DNA of 33,089 nucleotides, from IMG/VR virus record IMGVR_UViG_3300008107_000204, positions 1 through 33,089 of that record; one strand, written 5' to 3'. Within the stretch, counting starts at the first letter, position 1, and every line of letters begins with the position of its first letter. Position numbers and translations under genes: made by a program. Of the stretch, positions 8,352-31,784 are shown piece after piece. Below the pieces are notes generated by a model. It did no database searches. It was not told the origin of the DNA and saw only the letters and a list, made by a program, of their open reading frames with translations. The stretch is from a virus.

Positions 8352-8373
8352 TTGACAAAATCTAAATATACGT
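8352..8373 (+). repeat. 22-bp direct repeat, right copy
   Basis: Identical to 7896-7917. It contains the -35 element and most of the spacer of the exonuclease promoter. Confidence 0.9.
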
Positions 8374-12657: not shown

Positions 12658-12678
12658 AGCCCCGGAAACGGGGCTTTT
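12658..12678 (+). terminator. intrinsic terminator
   Basis: AGCCCCG (12658-12664), GAAA loop, CGGGGCT (12669-12675), then TTT. A perfect 7-bp GC-rich stem with a tetraloop and a short T run, placed just before the next promoter. Confidence 0.85.
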
Positions 12679-12685
12679 CCACGGC

Positions 12686-12714
12686 TTGACAATAAATCGG
12701 TTTGGGCATATAAT
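12686..12714 (+). promoter_or_regulatory. sigma70 promoter cassette (copy 1)
   Basis: TTGACA, spacer ATAAATCGGTTTGGGCA, TATAAT (12709-12714). Same cassette as at 13060, 29931, 30944, 31227 and 31722. The downstream leader ATTGATTGATTAAAGGAGC is shared with the copies at 13060 and 31227. Confidence 0.85.
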
Positions 12715-12743: not shown

Positions 12744-13034
12744 ATGAGTAACGTAGATTTTGACATTCGTGTAGCAGTCGGCAAAGATATGCAACAAAAA
12801 CGTGAAATCCGTATGTATGGTTGCACCGAAGCACAAATGCGTGAGGCTGTAGAACAAAGTCTTACTTTTCGTCATTCAGGTCCTGCTATGATGGCAGCTA
12901 GCCTTATGAGTGATTGTCAGGAAATGATTGCTTACGACAACGGCGGTTCTTACGATTTCATGGTCATTGAAGATGTTCGCCAGGCACTGAATCGTGCTAA
13001 GTGGATCCTGTTTGAATACTGTGATAAAAAGTAA
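12744..13034 (+). CDS. hypothetical phage protein
   Basis: A 96-residue soluble protein: VDFDIRVAVGKDMQQKREIR, then EAQMREAVEQSLTFRHSGPA and YDFMVIEDVRQALNRAKWIL. Not a family I recognise. AAAGGAGCTTGT before ATG 12744 fixes the start. It is the only gene between a terminator and the next promoter, so it is transcribed alone or with read-through. It ends in AAAAAGTAATACTTA. Confidence 0.75.
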   Translation: MSNVDFDIRVAVGKDMQQKREIRMYGCTEAQMREAVEQSLTFRHSGPAMMAASLMSDCQEMIAYDNGGSYDFMVIEDVRQALNRAKWILFEYCDKK

Positions 13035-13059
13035 TACTTAATGTTGCATTACCCAAAGG

Positions 13060-13088
13060 TTGACAATAAATCACTTTGGGTATATAAT
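13060..13088 (+). promoter_or_regulatory. sigma70 promoter cassette (copy 2) with inverted repeat
   Basis: TTGACA, spacer ATAAATCACTTTGGGTA, TATAAT (13083-13088). ACCCAAAG (13051-13058) and CTTTGGGT (13074-13081) form an 8-bp inverted repeat flanking the -35 element, a possible operator. Confidence 0.85.
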
Positions 13089-13117
13089 ACTTGTATTGAT
13101 TGATTAAAGGAGCTGAA

Positions 13118-13390
13118 ATGTCTGCACTAGTTGAATACACATTGGAACTGTACAAATCTGACAAACGTGTCAAAGGCGGTAAGCGTCTTGTGTCAAAAGA
13201 AGAATTTGCCCCAGTCACTAGAGCCTACATCAAGGCTGTGATTGATGCTAAAACTAAATTGGGCTTCATTGTTGAACCCCATGAGACTTGGGTTACCAAG
13301 CGCAACATGATGACTGGTAAGACTTATCAAGAACGTTATGACACCCCGTATTTCTGTTCACCCTCTAGCGAATCTTTTTGGAGCAACTAA
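13118..13390 (+). CDS. hypothetical phage protein
   Basis: A 90-residue basic protein: VEYTLELYKSDKRVKGGKRL, EEFAPVTRAYIKAVIDAKTK and a Ser-rich end (CSPSSESFWSN). No family recognised. The AAAGGAGCTGAA ribosome binding site supports ATG 13118. It is coupled to the next gene by TAATG. Confidence 0.72.
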   Translation: MSALVEYTLELYKSDKRVKGGKRLVSKEEFAPVTRAYIKAVIDAKTKLGFIVEPHETWVTKRNMMTGKTYQERYDTPYFCSPSSESFWSN

Positions 13391-23749: not shown

Positions 23750-25630
23750 ATGAGCAAAGTCATCGGTATCGATTTGGGTACCACAAATTCATGCGTAGCC
23801 GTTATTGAAAACGGAATCCCCAAAGTAATTGAAAATAGTGAAGGTGCTAGAACTACACCATCAATCGTAGCATATACTTCTGATGAAATTTTAGTAGGTG
23901 CAAGTGCTAAACGACAAGCAATTACAAATCCAAAGAACACAATCTATGCGGCTAAGCGACTAATCGGTCGTAAGTTTAAAGAACAAGCTGTTCAAAAAGA
24001 TATAGACTTGATGCCATATACCATCGTTGAAAACGAAAACGGTGATGCATGGGTTCAAGCACAAGATAAAAAGTTAGCACCCCCACAGATTAGTGCCGAA
24101 GTACTACGTAAGATGAAAAAGACAGCCGAAGACTATCTTGGTCATGAAGTCACGCAAGCAGTTATTACTGTGCCTGCGTACTTTAATGATAGTCAACGAC
24201 AAGCAACTAAAGATGCAGGTCGTATTGCTGGACTAGAAGTATTACGGATCATCAATGAACCCACAGCTGCCGCTCTTGCATACGGCGTGGACAAACAAGA
24301 CAAAAGGGATCGAAAGGTCGCAGTGTATGACTTAGGTGGTGGTACATTTGATGTATCTATCATTGAGTTAGCGGACGTTGATGGTGATAAACAAATTGAA
24401 GTCTTAAGCACAAACGGAGACACTTTCTTGGGTGGTGAAGACTTTGACCAACGCATCATGGACTTCTTGGTTGACGAATTCAAGAAGGATCAAGGAGTTG
24501 ACTTGACCAAAGATGTGTTAGCATTGCAACGTTTGAAGGAAGCCGCAGAGAAGGCTAAGATTGAACTAAGTAGCAGTAGTCAAACAGATGTTAACTTACC
24601 GTATATTACAGCAGATGCAAGTGGTCCAAAACACTTGAATGTTAAATTGAGTCGTGCCAAACTAGAAAGCCTAGTTGATGAACTAATCCAGCGCAGTATT
24701 GAACCTTGCAAAATTGCTATGCGTGACGCTGGTGTAAGCAACAGTGATATTGACGAAGTTATTCTAGTTGGTGGCATGACACGCATGCCTAAAGTACAAG
24801 AAACAGTTGAAAGTTTCTTTGGTAAAGCACCACGCAAAGATGTTAACCCTGATGAAGCAGTTGCCGCAGGCGCTGCCATTCAAGGTGACGTATTAAGCGG
24901 TGGACGCAAAGACGTATTATTGCTTGACGTTACACCATTAAGTTTGGGTATTGAAACATTAGGTGGAGTATTCACTAAAGTTATTCAAAAGAATACAACT
25001 ATTCCAACTAAGGCTTCACAGACATTTAGTACTGCCGAAGATAATCAACCTGCAGTTGATATTAAAGTAGGACAAGGTGAGCGTGAATTGTTCAAACATA
25101 ACAAGGTGTTAGGAGATTTCAAATTAGATGGTATCGCCCCTGCACAAAGAGGTGTACCTCAAATTGAAGTAACATTTGATATTGATGCTAACGGTATTAT
25201 GCACATCAGCGCCAAAGACAAAGGCACAGGTAAAGAAAACAAGATTACCATTAAATCTGACAGTGGCTTAACCGAAGCAGAGATTAAGAATATGGTCAGC
25301 GAAGCAGAAGAAAATGCTGAGGCTGACAAGAAACAGGTTGAATTGATACAAGCACGTAATGGTGCAGAATCAACTATGCATGGCTTTAGTAATGACTTGA
25401 AAAAGTACGGAGATAAAGTCACACCAGAAGAAAAGACAAAAGCGGAAGATGCAGTGAAAGCTGTTGAAACTGCAATTGATGGTGACGATGTTGAAAAAAT
25501 CAATCAATCTGTAAAAGATTTGTATGAGGCTATTGGTCCAATAACCAAAGTCAAATACGAAGAGGAGCAAAAATCAAAGGAAGATCCTGTGGTTGATGCA
25601 GAAGTTAAAGAGACAGCAACAACTGTTTAA
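23750..25630 (+). CDS. dnaK: DnaK (Hsp70) chaperone, full length
   Basis: A 626-residue Hsp70, close to E. coli DnaK (638). ATPase domain: GIDLGTTNS (6-14), [17 protein letters not shown] (about 142-158), [25 protein letters not shown] (about 191-203) and [13 protein letters not shown]. The interdomain linker [13 protein letters not shown] is intact, the substrate-binding domain is complete ([20 protein letters not shown]), and the helical lid ends in VVDAEVKE, resembling the proteobacterial EEVKD-type tail. It refolds proteins with DnaJ and GrpE, neither of which is in this window, so host co-chaperones would be used. Close similarity to bacterial DnaK suggests acquisition from a host. The leader carries a thermometer-like ribosome binding site. 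Confidence 0.97.
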
Positions 25631-26211: not shown

Positions 26212-26523
26212 ATGGCAAGTCAAACAGAAACAAAAGTAAGAATTAAACCCGATTTCAAAATGCCTGAACCCCCGATGTTCAAGGTCATTTATATGAATGA
26301 TAATCACACTAGTATGGAGTTTGTTGTATCTACTTTAATTGAACATTTTAATTACACCGAAGATACTGCTGAAAATATTACTACTGGAATCCACGAACAA
26401 GGTAGTGCAGTAGTAGCTGTATTGCCTTACGAGATTGCCGAGCAAAAAGGCATGGAAGTTACTTTAGAAGCCCGTAGTCAGGGTTTTCCATTACAAGTAA
26501 AAATTGAATCCGAAGAAAATTAA
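26212..26523 (+). CDS. clpS: ClpS, N-degron adaptor
   Basis: A 103-residue ClpS. After a flexible N-terminus (1-17) comes PEPPMFKVIYMNDNHTSMEF (18-37) with the N-degron pocket residues N29 and D30; the usual second Asp of NDD is N31. H61 in GIHEQG corresponds to the conserved His that contacts the N-terminal amine. The family ending is EARSQGFPLQVKIE. ClpS delivers N-end-rule substrates to ClpAP; no ClpA is in the window, so host ClpA is the likely partner. It has its own promoter and a leader hairpin. The stop overlaps a convergent minus-strand gene by 4 nt. Confidence 0.92.
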   Translation: MASQTETKVRIKPDFKMPEPPMFKVIYMNDNHTSMEFVVSTLIEHFNYTEDTAENITTGIHEQGSAVVAVLPYEIAEQKGMEVTLEARSQGFPLQVKIESEEN

Positions 26524-27215
26524 ATGACTATCTCTATGCGTTTAGCATAGTAAGGTTCACGGTCATATTTGGTATTATTTAAATAGTTGATATTGTTTAA
26601 TACAGTATCAACTAATTTATTATGTGTTCCGTAAACCCATTTAGTTACCTTGTGTTCGGTATCTTTATATAAGACATATCCGGGATATACATCTTCATCA
26701 TTGGTGTCACACTCACCAAAATACAGTTCCCTAAAAGGGACACAATTGCTCATAATTACAATCTTCTTTACATCGACATGCACTTGTAATTTTTCTAGTG
26801 TTTTTTCTAAATAACTTATATCTTCAAACCTATAGCACTTAGCGTGGAAATCATCTACAATGCTATTATTCTCATAATTTTTGTACCATCCATTGATACC
26901 AATGAATGCTACACCATCTACTACGACAACATTATTGTGTAAGTAGATTACATTTTTGAAATTACTACAGATTTTTTGAATTTCTTTAACTCTAATTTCC
27001 CGTGAGTTAATATCAATATTTTCTAGCCAACCATCTATATAAAATACCCCGTGATACATGCTACTAAGTTGACTAAAGACTTTGTATAGTATCTGCAAAT
27101 CACTTGAAATATTGCCGGGTATAAGGCAAAAAAGGCTGGTTGGTTTACCAGACCAATCAAATTCCTCTGCTGATTTTAAATTTAAATCACTAATAACATC
27201 AAAGCCAAATATCAT
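26520..27215 (-). CDS. degenerate metallophosphoesterase-fold protein
   Basis: A 231-residue protein with the layout of calcineurin-like phosphoesterases but lacking metal ligands. The D-x-H motif reads FDVISDLNL (His to Asn). The GD-x-x-D region reads PGNISSD and the GNH region YIDGWLE. YLHNNVVVVDGVAFIGINGW and the late YGTHNK remain. Similar ligand-poor MPE-like proteins occur in T4-like phages, from memory. It is probably non-enzymatic or a variant with a different site. A late-type octamer CATAAATA lies 4 nt before its ATG. It converges on clpS. Confidence 0.75.
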   Translation of the reverse strand: MIFGFDVISDLNLKSAEEFDWSGKPTSLFCLIPGNISSDLQILYKVFSQLSSMYHGVFYIDGWLENIDINSREIRVKEIQKICSNFKNVIYLHNNVVVVDGVAFIGINGWYKNYENNSIVDDFHAKCYRFEDISYLEKTLEKLQVHVDVKKIVIMSNCVPFRELYFGECDTNDEDVYPGYVLYKDTEHKVTKWVYGTHNKLVDTVLNNINYLNNTKYDREPYYAKRIEIVI

Positions 27216-29250: not shown

Positions 29251-29299
29251 GTAAAATGTCTCTTTGAGTTAATGAAGTGATAATTGTATCACCATTAAG

Positions 29300-29307
29300 T
29301 ATTTATC
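29300..29307 (-). promoter_or_regulatory. minus-strand late promoter octamer GATAAATA
   Basis: GATAAATA on the minus strand, then CTTA and an ATG opening an 8-codon frame (MVIQLSLH). The annotated gene start is 50 nt further on at 29250. Confidence 0.45.
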
Positions 29308-29330
29308 GCAAATTTATTTTAAGGATGTAT

Positions 29331-29921
29331 ATGAGTTTAGTGCCAATGGTTTTAGAACAAACAAGCAAGGGTGAACGTAGCTATGATATTTATAGTCGTT
29401 TGCTTAGGGACCGTGTAATTTTGCTTGAGGGCGAAGTACACGACCACATGGCAAATCTAATTGTTGCCCAGTTGTTGTATCTTGAAAGTGAAGGAGATAA
29501 AGATATCTCCGTATATATTAATAGTCCAGGTGGTAGTGTAACTGCTGGTATGGCGATCTATGATTGTATGCAATTCGTCAAGCCTGATATCCATACAATT
29601 GTCATGGGTCAGGCATGCTCTATGGGTAGTTTGCTTTCACAAGCAGGTAGCCCGGGTAAGCGTCATATGCTTCCAAATGCACGACATATGATCCATCAAC
29701 CTTCAGGCGGCGCACGTGGTCAAGCCACTGACATGGAAATTCAAGTAAAAGAGATTTTGCAAATGAAACGAACCTTGACAGAAATCTATGTCAATCACAA
29801 TAGCATGGGTAAAACATTTGTAGAATTGTCAAAAGACATGGAACGTGACTTTTACATGAGCGCCCAAGAATCTGTAGACTATGGTCTTGCAGACAAAATA
29901 CTTACCTCTCGTACTACTTAA
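29331..29921 (+). CDS. clpP: ClpP, ATP-dependent Clp protease proteolytic subunit
   Basis: A 196-residue serine protease of the ClpP family, full length (E. coli mature form about 193). The catalytic Ser97 is in [10 protein letters not shown], His122 in HMIHQP and Asp at about 168 in [11 protein letters not shown]. Other signatures: [36 protein letters not shown] and GQATDMEIQ. There is almost no propeptide before the mature start, so it may not need processing. It should form tetradecamers docking phage ClpX (IGF loop present) or host ClpA/X. ATG 29331 has the AAGGATGTAT ribosome binding site; an upstream in-frame ATG at 29277 is less likely. Confidence 0.95.
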
Positions 29922-29930
29922 GTATTCAGT

Positions 29931-29959
29931 TTGACAATAAATAGGTTTGGGTATACAAT
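29931..29959 (+). promoter_or_regulatory. sigma70 promoter cassette (copy 3)
   Basis: TTGACA, spacer ATAAATAGGTTTGGGTA, TACAAT (29954-29959), directly after the clpP stop. Confidence 0.78.
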
Positions 29960-30184: not shown

Positions 30185-30928
30185 ATGCTTAGAGTATTAG
30201 GCGCCGGGCCAAACAGCGAACTTGCCAAAACAATAGATAAATTCACCGACCAGCGTGATCGGATAAAAACTGAATTATCTAAGTTCCTACAGTGGAAAAA
30301 CAAAACACCTTATAACGGATCTTTACCCGGGTTACCTGGCTTCGGTGATAGTGACAGAAAATTTAGATCGGGTGGTAATTTTGGTTCTAAGTTACCCGGT
30401 ATTTCACATGCACATTTAACACACAACCTTAGCATTGTGTATTTTGTTGACAAAGAAACAAACACTATACGATTATACGGTGTTTACAGCCATGATGATA
30501 TTGGCACCGGTAGTCCTCCTGACTTAAAACGCCAAGAACAAATGGGAGGTCGTTGGGCTAATATGAAGTTTGATGCTAGTATACAGCCTACTGCACTTGA
30601 CCCTTCAACAAAGACAATCACACAAAAATTGGTATCGCAAGGCAAACCAAACTATGCGCCTAAGCCAAAACAACCTGTAGCAAGTACCACGGCGCAACAA
30701 GAAGAATCTCCTTTTGTGCAAATGTCTAAGCAGGTAGATAGTTTTTGGCCTGATCGTAACCTGTACAAACAGTTACAAAATGCACGTTCAAAAACAGAAC
30801 AATTAGCCGTGATCAATGGTGAAGTAAATTATATCAATGTGATATCTAAACGCCACTCTCTATACCCTAACCAAATGCAATATGTAAGAGGGTTGCAGGC
30901 ACTATACAATGCACTTACCAAAAAGTAA
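30185..30928 (+). CDS. phage protein with RelE-like N-terminal segment
   Basis: A 247-residue protein. The segment LPGISHAHLTHNLSIVYFVD followed by TIRLYGVYSHDDIGTG (about 72-112) resembles the 'H..L...-l-Y.v-....l.L.....H' core of RelE/YafQ-type mRNA interferases. A Pro/Gln-rich linker (KPKQPVASTTAQQEES) and a helical C-terminus (VDSFWPDRNLYKQLQNARSK ...) follow. A weak AGGGTGG site precedes ATG 30185. It ends in AAAAAGTAATACTTA. Function uncertain: toxin-like fold or structural protein. Confidence 0.65.
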   Translation: MLRVLGAGPNSELAKTIDKFTDQRDRIKTELSKFLQWKNKTPYNGSLPGLPGFGDSDRKFRSGGNFGSKLPGISHAHLTHNLSIVYFVDKETNTIRLYGVYSHDDIGTGSPPDLKRQEQMGGRWANMKFDASIQPTALDPSTKTITQKLVSQGKPNYAPKPKQPVASTTAQQEESPFVQMSKQVDSFWPDRNLYKQLQNARSKTEQLAVINGEVNYINVISKRHSLYPNQMQYVRGLQALYNALTKK

Positions 30929-30943
30929 TACTTAAGCAGTAGG

Positions 30944-30972
30944 TTGACAATAAATCACTTTGGGTATACAAT
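30944..30972 (+). promoter_or_regulatory. sigma70 promoter cassette (copy 4)
   Basis: TTGACA, spacer ATAAATCACTTTGGGTA, TACAAT (30967-30972), 16 nt after the previous stop. Spacer identical to the copies at 13060, 31227 and 31722. Confidence 0.82.
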
Positions 30973-31001
30973 AGAGGCTTCTGTAGTGAAAAGGAGCTTT
31001 T

Positions 31002-31202
31002 ATGTCTTACATCGTTTTCAAACACAATAAAGAATACGGTCCTCGTCAAGGTCTCGAGGGTCCGTTTCACTACCCCAATGGTCAGGTTCTGTACTACGAT
31101 CCTAAACAAGGTGAGTACTACGATCCTCGTACCGACTTCTATGTTGATCGTGATGAGGTCGCATTGTTGCAAAATTCCATCTTTGATGTACTCAAAAAGT
31201 AG
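31002..31202 (+). CDS. small Tyr/Asp-rich phage protein
   Basis: A 66-residue protein: FKHNKEYGPRQGLEGPFHYP, GQVLYYDPKQGEYYDPRTDF and a C-terminal helix (VALLQNSIFDVLKK). The YYDPKQGEYYDP part is a short internal repeat. No family recognised. AAAAGGAGCTTTT before the ATG is strong. It ends in AAAAAGTAGTACTT. Confidence 0.72.
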   Translation: MSYIVFKHNKEYGPRQGLEGPFHYPNGQVLYYDPKQGEYYDPRTDFYVDRDEVALLQNSIFDVLKK

Positions 31203-31226
31203 TACTTTTTATCGCATACCCAAAGG

Positions 31227-31255
31227 TTGACAATAAATCACTTTGGGTATATAAT
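31227..31255 (+). promoter_or_regulatory. sigma70 promoter cassette (copy 5) with 10-bp inverted repeat
   Basis: TTGACA, spacer ATAAATCACTTTGGGTA, TATAAT (31250-31255). ATACCCAAAG (31216-31225) and CTTTGGGTAT (31241-31250) flank the -35. From the -35 to the ribosome binding site the copy is practically identical to that at 13060. Confidence 0.87.
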
Positions 31256-31286
31256 ACTTGTATTGATTGATTAAAGGAGCACATAA

Positions 31287-31559
31287 ATGCGTACAAAAAC
31301 AGTTATCGAAGGTCTGAAAAACTCACAAAAATTCCGTGTGATTTTCAAAGGCGACGGAAGTGAAAACGATATCGGTATGTACCTCACAATCAAGCAAATG
31401 ACCGAACAATTTGCTACAGTTAACGCCCGCACATTGTGTTGGGACGCAATGATTAGGTTAGCAGTTGAACGCCGTATTGCTAAGTCACTAAACGAACCAA
31501 TTCCAAGTGGTCTCGGTACTACTATTCGTGGCAAGCAAATTCAAGTTGATTTGGTTTAA
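31287..31559 (+). CDS. hypothetical phage protein
   Basis: A 90-residue basic protein: RTKTVIEGLKNSQKFRVIFK, DIGMYLTIKQMTEQFATVNA, ARTLCWDAMIRLAVERRIAK and a short Gly-rich end. The central part could be a helix-turn-helix (TIKQMTEQFATVNARTLCWD), which would fit a small regulator, but this is only a pattern reading. AAAGGAGCACATAA precedes ATG 31287, behind promoter copy 5. Confidence 0.7.
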   Translation: MRTKTVIEGLKNSQKFRVIFKGDGSENDIGMYLTIKQMTEQFATVNARTLCWDAMIRLAVERRIAKSLNEPIPSGLGTTIRGKQIQVDLV

Positions 31560-31569
31560 GGAGTATAGT

Positions 31570-31725
31570 ATGAAATACGAAACAGCCATCAAAGTCCTGC
31601 TCAAAGAATGTGAATTTTTAGGTCAGAATATTTCAGACCTGTTGCAAGATATTGCACAAAACGGTCGTATGATGTATAGCGAAAAAGTAGTACAAGCCGC
31701 AGATGTGTATAACAGCCGCGGTTGA
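31570..31725 (+). CDS. small helical protein
   Basis: A 51-residue protein: KYETAIKVLLKECEFLGQNI, then SDLLQDIAQNGRMMYSEKVV and QAADVYNSRG. Helical, unrecognised. AAGGAGTATAGT is its ribosome binding site, 10 nt after the previous stop. Its TGA stop lies inside the -35 of the next promoter. Confidence 0.68.
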   Translation: MKYETAIKVLLKECEFLGQNISDLLQDIAQNGRMMYSEKVVQAADVYNSRG

Positions 31726-31750
31726 CAATAAATCACTTTGGGTATATAAT
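31722..31750 (+). promoter_or_regulatory. sigma70 promoter cassette (copy 6)
   Basis: TTGACA (31722-31727, overlapping the upstream TGA), spacer ATAAATCACTTTGGGTA, TATAAT (31745-31750), 34 nt before ATG 31785. Confidence 0.87.
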
Positions 31751-31784
31751 AGAATCTTCAACAGTAAACAACAGGAGTTTGAAA

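Follow-up and report, generated by a model that had tools for sequence, protein, structure and literature searches.

The T4 early promoters are uniform promoters of the host polymerase that precede many small early genes, and the operators of lambda-type dimeric repressors overlap the −35/−10 region. In the PeSL motifs of T4-like phages, reportedly treated by Arbiol in 2010 and by Comeau in 2014, the stem-loop sits upstream of the promoter, with a terminator-like U-tract. PeSLs are composite promoter-terminator motifs of T4-like phages (PMC4503421), and the locus analysed here resembles them in joining a compact intergenic stem-loop to an early-type promoter cassette that recurs in variable regions of phage genomes. 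A literature search over titles and abstract openings, with few subscription papers among them, found neither the present promoter family nor a stem-loop spanning the −35 box described.

The DNA studied, called the window in the following, is an uncultivated virus record of IMG/VR with a length of 33,089 bases. Megablast of its positions 10000-33089 against 50,697 phage records gave no match. Proteins of the window matched a DNA ligase, an exonuclease and a QueE-like protein, and there was a weak match to a helicase; ClpP, ClpS and SprT-like proteins are also encoded. Large phages, e.g. GAP32 and CcrPW, have distant relatives of one small protein, with identities of about 29-40%. The DnaK-like chaperone (named by its relatives' annotation), ClpS and ClpP (23750-25630, 26212-26523 and 29277-29921) make up an unusual protein-quality-control set. 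A Pfam scan of 20 window proteins at E 0.01 gave no match to a DNA-binding regulator, and the Rfam search of the window at gathering scores gave 0 matches.

The initial annotation had reported a 10-bp inverted repeat around the −35 element of a promoter cassette, and direct reading confirmed it: the arms ATACCCAAAG (31216-31225) and CTTTGGGTAT (31241-31250) enclose a centre of 15 nt, GTTGACAATAAATCA. A second repeat was found where it had been placed, but its arms, TACCCAAAG (13050-13058) and CTTTGGGTA (13074-13082), are 9 bp long and not 8. The 15-nt centre is identical in these two armed copies (31216-31250 and 13050-13082), as had been claimed. The features of the window that concern the repeat are the following.

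31002..31202, + strand: upstream gene, 66 aa, partial match to PHROG 13298 (sequence, PHROGs)
31194..31210, + strand: A+T palindrome AAAAAGTAGTACTTTTT that overlaps the stop codon and is predicted to form a small hairpin (sequence, folding)
31216..31225, + strand: left arm (sequence)
31227..31238, + strand: conserved box TTGACAATAAAT, the −35 hexamer plus an AT-rich half, inside the loop of the repeat (sequence, family comparison)
31241..31250, + strand: right arm, in the −35/−10 spacer and on the first base of the −10 box (sequence)
31227..31255, + strand: sigma70-type promoter with two perfect consensus hexamers and a 17-nt spacer (consensus scoring)
31216..31250, + strand: predicted stem-loop (folding of 31210-31256)
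31287..31559, + strand: downstream gene, 90 aa, no PHROG match (sequence, PHROGs)
12744..13034, + strand: gene preceding the second copy, 96 aa, without PHROG match (sequence, PHROGs)
13050..13058, + strand: left arm of the second copy (sequence)
13060..13088, + strand: promoter of the second copy, the same 29 bases as 31227-31255 (sequence)
13074..13082, + strand: right arm of the second copy (sequence)
13118..13390, + strand: gene following the second copy, 90 aa, without PHROG match (sequence, PHROGs)
12658..12678, + strand: terminator-like hairpin AGCCCCG-GAAA-CGGGGCT followed by TTT, directly 5′ of the 12686 promoter (sequence)
12686..12714, + strand: promoter copy without left arm (pattern match)
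29931..29959, + strand: promoter copy without left arm (pattern match)
30944..30972, + strand: promoter copy without left arm (pattern match)
31722..31750, + strand: promoter copy without left arm (pattern match)

Both hexamers at 31227 and at 31722 agree with the sigma70 consensus at 12 of 12 positions, 13060 has the same 29 bases as 31227, and the 17-nt spacing at 31227 falls within the 16-18 nt of sigma70 promoters. With up to three mismatches, the promoter pattern matched seven sites in the window, six of them full copies and the seventh, at 8352, a weak match, compared with 0.04 in shuffles; CTTTGGGTAT with up to one mismatch was found 11 times compared with 2.64. All six full copies (12686, 13060, 29931, 30944, 31227 and 31722) lie on the + strand, and the left arm occurs only at 13060 and 31227. 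The remaining four had been said to keep the right arm only; the left arm is indeed absent from all of them, but the exact right arm is present just at 30944 and 31722, the variants being GTTTGGGCAT at 12686 and GTTTGGGTAT at 29931. Over an 89-base alignment, which starts with the palindrome at the stop codon of the upstream gene and reaches the ribosome-binding site, the armed copies are identical at 83 positions, and thus they were counted as one event and not as two independent cases; by this similarity they look like duplicates, most simply of one duplicated element. A palindrome, AAGTANTACTT, lies at or near the upstream stop before four promoters (12635, 13029, 30923 and 31197) and was found within 60 nt upstream of 16 of 996 family promoters compared with about 0.8 expected; it may form a small stem-loop of its own or serve as a binding site. 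At 26584-26614 there is a further inverted repeat, TAGTTGATA...TATCAACTA, with a loop of 13 nt, and its pattern was found in 17 of the collected sequences, away from the promoters.

The stop codons of the genes at 31002..31202 and 12744..13034 end 24 and 25 nt before TTGACA, respectively, and stop codon, stem and promoter are packed into about 60 nt at both sites (31200-31255 and 13032-13088), which is the likeness of the window to the PeSLs. The PeSL layout proper, with a separate upstream stem-loop, is seen in the window copy at 12658-12714. In the armed copies, in contrast, the stem spans the promoter, with the −35 box in the loop and the spacer as the 3′ strand, and it has no U-tract. Both layouts coexist in the window, as a GC hairpin with a T-run before 12686 and as a spanning stem at 13060 and 31227, and the armed copies appear to be a compact relative of PeSLs, in which stem and promoter share bases. 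The predicted RNA fold of 31210-31256 has −13.1 kcal/mol (z −4.0) and that of 13044-13089 has −12.0 kcal/mol (z −2.9). The arm-less copy at 30944 (30927-30973) gave −7.7 kcal/mol (z −2.2) with a different shape, and the arm-less copy at 31722 (31705-31751) folded no better than shuffles (z +1.0). A stem-loop of such energy a few bases after the stop codon resembles an intrinsic terminator; however, the loop of 15 nt differs from one, a G+C-rich hairpin with a U run was not found at the armed copies, and as the U-tract after the stem is absent from both of them, the stem is not called an intrinsic terminator here. Reading its function from sequence, we consider it somewhat more probable than not that the repeat is a stem-loop that closes the upstream transcript and shares bases with the next promoter.

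The T4 early promoters differ in consensus from the promoter family of the window. In 40 kb of T4, a promoter pattern identified 14 promoter-like sites, at two of which the longest perfect run was 7 bp (one of them at register 13), while it was at most 6 bp at the other 12. At none of these sites did a perfect run across the −35 box reach 8 bp in registers −4 to 18; 14 sites are, however, too few at the family base rate of about 3% to speak against the spanning form in T4. At several of them, uncontrolled predicted folds pair across the −35 box.

The promoter family was collected from IMG/VR by scans with the right-arm pattern (91 stretches), the left-arm pattern (44 stretches) and five further scans (at least 120 each). 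From the matches listed, 568 sequences including the window were retained, and these contained at least 1,870 cassettes agreeing with the family core, TTGACAATAAAT-N11-TATAAT, at 15 or more of its 18 positions. Merging at ≥60% identity over the 45 upstream bases left 996 non-redundant cassettes. At an earlier stage with 400 sequences, the 484 best non-redundant cassettes, which exclude the sequences of the left-arm scan, had TTTGGG in the spacer in 204 cases, TGN in 156 and neither in 124. About half of the spacers without TTTGGG (105/206) end in TGN, the extended −10 element, and TTTGGG and TGN look like alternative spacer forms. A downstream ORF was found for at least 1,710 cassettes, the encoded proteins forming 343 clusters, and the same cassette precedes different genes. 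In some cassettes of family 1 (L032 235, L053 10422, L445 8071), ATG follows the −10 box by about 6 nt, which suggests that such cassettes may give rise to leaderless mRNAs. A tight pattern of the TTTGGG promoter form had 0 matches in 84,980 bacterial and archaeal genomes, and a relaxed one had a single match in the same set, in a Clostridia MAG.

The arms could in principle be two independent motifs, namely a (C)CCAAA element in phase with the −35 box and a TTTGGGTA spacer element, which are complementary by accident. CCAAA was found at −7/−6 from TTGACA in 32 of 204 TTTGGG promoters, while each other upstream position had it in 0 to 5 promoters, and it was also found there with TGN (17/156) and other spacers (6/124), as expected if it did not depend on TTTGGG; the difference was not significant between TTTGGG and TGN promoters (p 0.22) but was so between TTTGGG and the rest (p 0.013). 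The initial annotation had asked if the left arm is absent or random in most copies of related phages, and it proved to be absent from most, as the 32 of 204 show, but far from random. The annotation had also proposed an alignment of all cassettes for co-variation of both arms, and co-variation was found. In 46 promoters with both motifs, the variable pairs matched in 63 cases compared with 50.1 expected in shuffles (p 0.002), in a stricter set of 35 promoters they matched in 46 compared with 37.5 (p 0.01), and the p-value for the outer pairs ranged from 0.0003 to 0.01 by selection, although register 13 alone, with n=4, gave p 0.33. Such co-variation is not expected of motifs matching by accident, nor are arms unrelated to either motif, such as CAGAATTCGG/CCGAATTCTG and TAGCACAGAA/TTCTGTGCTA, nor the outcome of the swap test (see below) in non-TTTGGG promoters (n=77, z −12.2). 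We regard two independent motifs as very improbable; an early form of this reading, based on CCAAA in 33 of 273 promoters whose spacer lacks TTGG and in 34 of 187 with TTTGGG, was dropped after the outer-pair, register and swap tests.

Perfect versions of the repeat of 10-15 bp with quite different arms were found in the family. The perfect 10-pair arms comprise 12 distinct sequences (13 if one is counted in two registers), and hence the conserved half-site of a dimer operator was not found. The arms AGTCCCAAAA/TTTTGGGACT in L339 pair over 15 bp in full and can run into the −10 box, ATGCCCAAAG/CTTTGGGCAT in L103 pair over 15 bp, ATACCCAATC/GATTGGGTAT in L449 over 14 bp, and the pair CAGAATTCGG/CCGAATTCTG of L387 belongs to the perfect 10-pair arms. 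Even promoters that lie on a single contig piece differ in their arm words (L049, L128, L445, L504). In family 13, the innermost pair of otherwise equal arms is C-G, T-A or G-C, and it is broken in three relatives (L032, L028, L035).

The relatives of the 13118 and 31287 genes did not support the left arm as a fixed mark of one gene's promoter. For the 13118 gene, seven of nine records at ≥89% identity (the window counted) keep the TTTGGG spacer without the left arm, four of these seven sharing upstream sequence and so representing fewer independent cases. For the 31287 gene, CCCAA[AC]G is in place in seven of 41 relatives among the matches listed, the window included, four of the seven (L099, L110, L122, L128) deriving from the left-arm-selected scan.

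The pairing was compared between registers in the 996 promoters. A helix score of at least 7 was reached at registers 11-13 by 48 of 996 promoters, compared with 5, 3, 2, 2 and 5 in five control triplets, and a score of at least 9 by 19 of 996, compared with 1, 0, 0, 0 and 0. From register 8 through register 16, the repeats of at least 8 bp numbered 0, 0, 1, 3, 16, 12, 5, 1 and 0; with perfect pairing and all registers counted, the excess arises where the dyad centre falls just after TTGACA. In the later loci (L408 on; 249 promoters), which were fetched after the hypothesis with patterns not naming the arms, five of 249 had a repeat of at least 8 bp at registers 11-13 compared with a mean of 0.16 per control register, and register 10 had one. 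Outside the cassettes, repeats of at least 9 bp with loops of 10-20 occur at about 9e-6 per position and loop length, in the cassettes at roughly 5e-3. A chance origin of the repeat was rejected on the register controls and the rate outside the cassettes.

The presence of the repeat was then related to the end of the preceding gene in 899 deduplicated promoters. Where the upstream stop ends 13-30 nt before TTGACA, the repeat was present in 30 of 110 promoters; it was found in four of 96 with gaps of 6-12 nt, in eight of 486 with an overlapping upstream gene, in three of 172 with the stop farther away and in none of 35 without a stop within 250 nt (short gap versus far plus none, p 1.8e-12), although the stops were assigned automatically and some wrongly (31227 was scored +4, while the true stop ends at 31202), the counts come from the matches listed, and the gap classes could differ in other ways as well. 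The later loci followed the same trend (6/31 vs 1/55, p 0.008). The median distance from the stop codon to the left arm is 7 nt, and 80 of the 110 short-gap promoters have no flush repeat. With the downstream family given, the upstream gene family is the better predictor of the repeat (z 6.2, compared with z 3.2 for the reverse). Where the gap is 31-60 nt, 55 of 137 distinct promoters are preceded by a terminator-like hairpin and T-run compared with about 0.6 in shuffles, and at 13-30 nt the same scan found 1 of 173, partly by construction, since a hairpin and a T-run scarcely fit there.

A template-switch (quasi-palindrome) mutation could also form such repeats if, during replication, the free left flank were overwritten by a copy of the constrained spacer, and the product would then have no function. 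The perfect arms reaching the −10 box (15 bp in L339), the lack of a clear G-U preference and the moderate excess of long repeats elsewhere (9.2e-6 compared with 4.5e-6 expected from base composition, for ≥9 bp) are in line with this origin. However, registers 8-10 with similar loops would be expected to have repeats too, and they had 0, 0 and 1 of 8 bp or more; the rate in the cassettes is hundreds of times the rate elsewhere; and the difference between three of 172 far-gap and 30 of 110 short-gap promoters is left unexplained. A mutational origin without function is thus unlikely.

According to the initial annotation, the repeat may be an operator that sets apart two regulated promoters, that is, a dimeric phage or host regulator would bind both arms and repress or activate the promoter between them. 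An inverted repeat over a promoter is indeed shared with the lambda-type operators, in most cases the dyad centre falls near a single point immediately behind TTGACA, and CCAAA is sharply placed at −7 relative to TTGACA, but the arms here, unlike those of the lambda-type operators, are not conserved in sequence. They differ among promoters within one contig piece, and their variable positions still match their partners, which is unnecessary for a binding site. Neither is the spacing fixed (registers 10-15 had 1, 3, 16, 12, 5 and 1 repeats of ≥8 bp), pairing remains after removal of the register 11-13 repeats, and the repeat is rare where the upstream gene ends farther away. We consider a dyad operator distinctly unlikely. 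Family 11 agrees with it: there, the promoter-spanning repeat occurs in 23 of 34 distinct promoters, many with constant outer TAACAC/GTGTTA. This family of about 125-aa proteins (L025 5373, L049 6760, L404 12138 and others) has a leader of about 60 nt, the inner pairs of its repeat vary between the distinct promoters, a PHROG search with one member gave no match, and from these sequence traits it is the strongest candidate for true regulation. The operator proposed for the two window promoters was not supported, since these look like duplicates, the left arm is absent from most close relatives of the 13118 gene, the arms vary, the register drifts and the repeat depends on the gene end; the same observations point to a stem-loop tied to the upstream gene.

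Further support for such a stem-loop was obtained by swapping the upstream pieces between promoters. In the short-gap class (n=110), the mean energy rose from −8.26 kcal/mol for the real sequences to −5.50 kcal/mol, and 0 of 100 swaps was as low. The gain was also seen when the later loci were taken alone (n=31, z −6.9), when the left-arm-selected loci were left out (n=94, z −12.0) and when the register 11-13 repeats were removed (n=80, z −6.3). The effect was small in the other gap classes, with z −3.0, −1.6, −1.4 and −2.7, the far class having −3.0 and the overlapping class, sampled at 250, −2.7. The gain was alike on the sense and antisense strands. Single mismatches of the G-T and A-C types numbered 11 and 4, respectively. 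The wobble was rejected as proof of RNA, since the raw ratios (11 to 4 and 25 to 6) come from a T/G-rich right arm, and given the right base no clear G-U preference was found. It is thus the gene-end rule, and not the wobble, that points to RNA as the probable acting molecule.

Taken together, the comparisons showed that the predicted pairing exceeds chance, survives changes of the arm sequence and goes with a gene ending 13-30 nt upstream. In the arrangement we propose, the transcript from the upstream promoter would cross its gene, and the stem-loop would fold a few bases past the stop codon, with its left arm formed by the short intergenic gap, TTGACAATAAAT in the loop, and its right arm by the −35/−10 spacer, in some cases together with the −10 box. 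Such a stem might slow transcription, bring it to an end or shield the 3′-end, and would limit read-through into the next unit, while the downstream promoter is presumably an ordinary early promoter of the host RNA polymerase. The spanning stem may then be what becomes of the terminator-then-promoter layout, found in these phages where there is room, once it is compressed. A further step, which we put forward tentatively, is that the bases have a dual use, serving as promoter in the DNA and, if transcribed from upstream, as loop and 3′ strand in the RNA, where they would end or insulate the upstream message and couple read-through to initiation at one site; the phages would then re-invent the arms by compensatory change wherever a gene ends shortly upstream of a promoter.

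These results suggest that in arrays of small phage genes the end of one transcript and the promoter of the next can be packed into about 50 bases. The positional rule, a gene end 13-30 nt before the promoter, is simple and can be checked by transcript mapping. They also advise caution against taking every inverted repeat around a −35 box for an operator.
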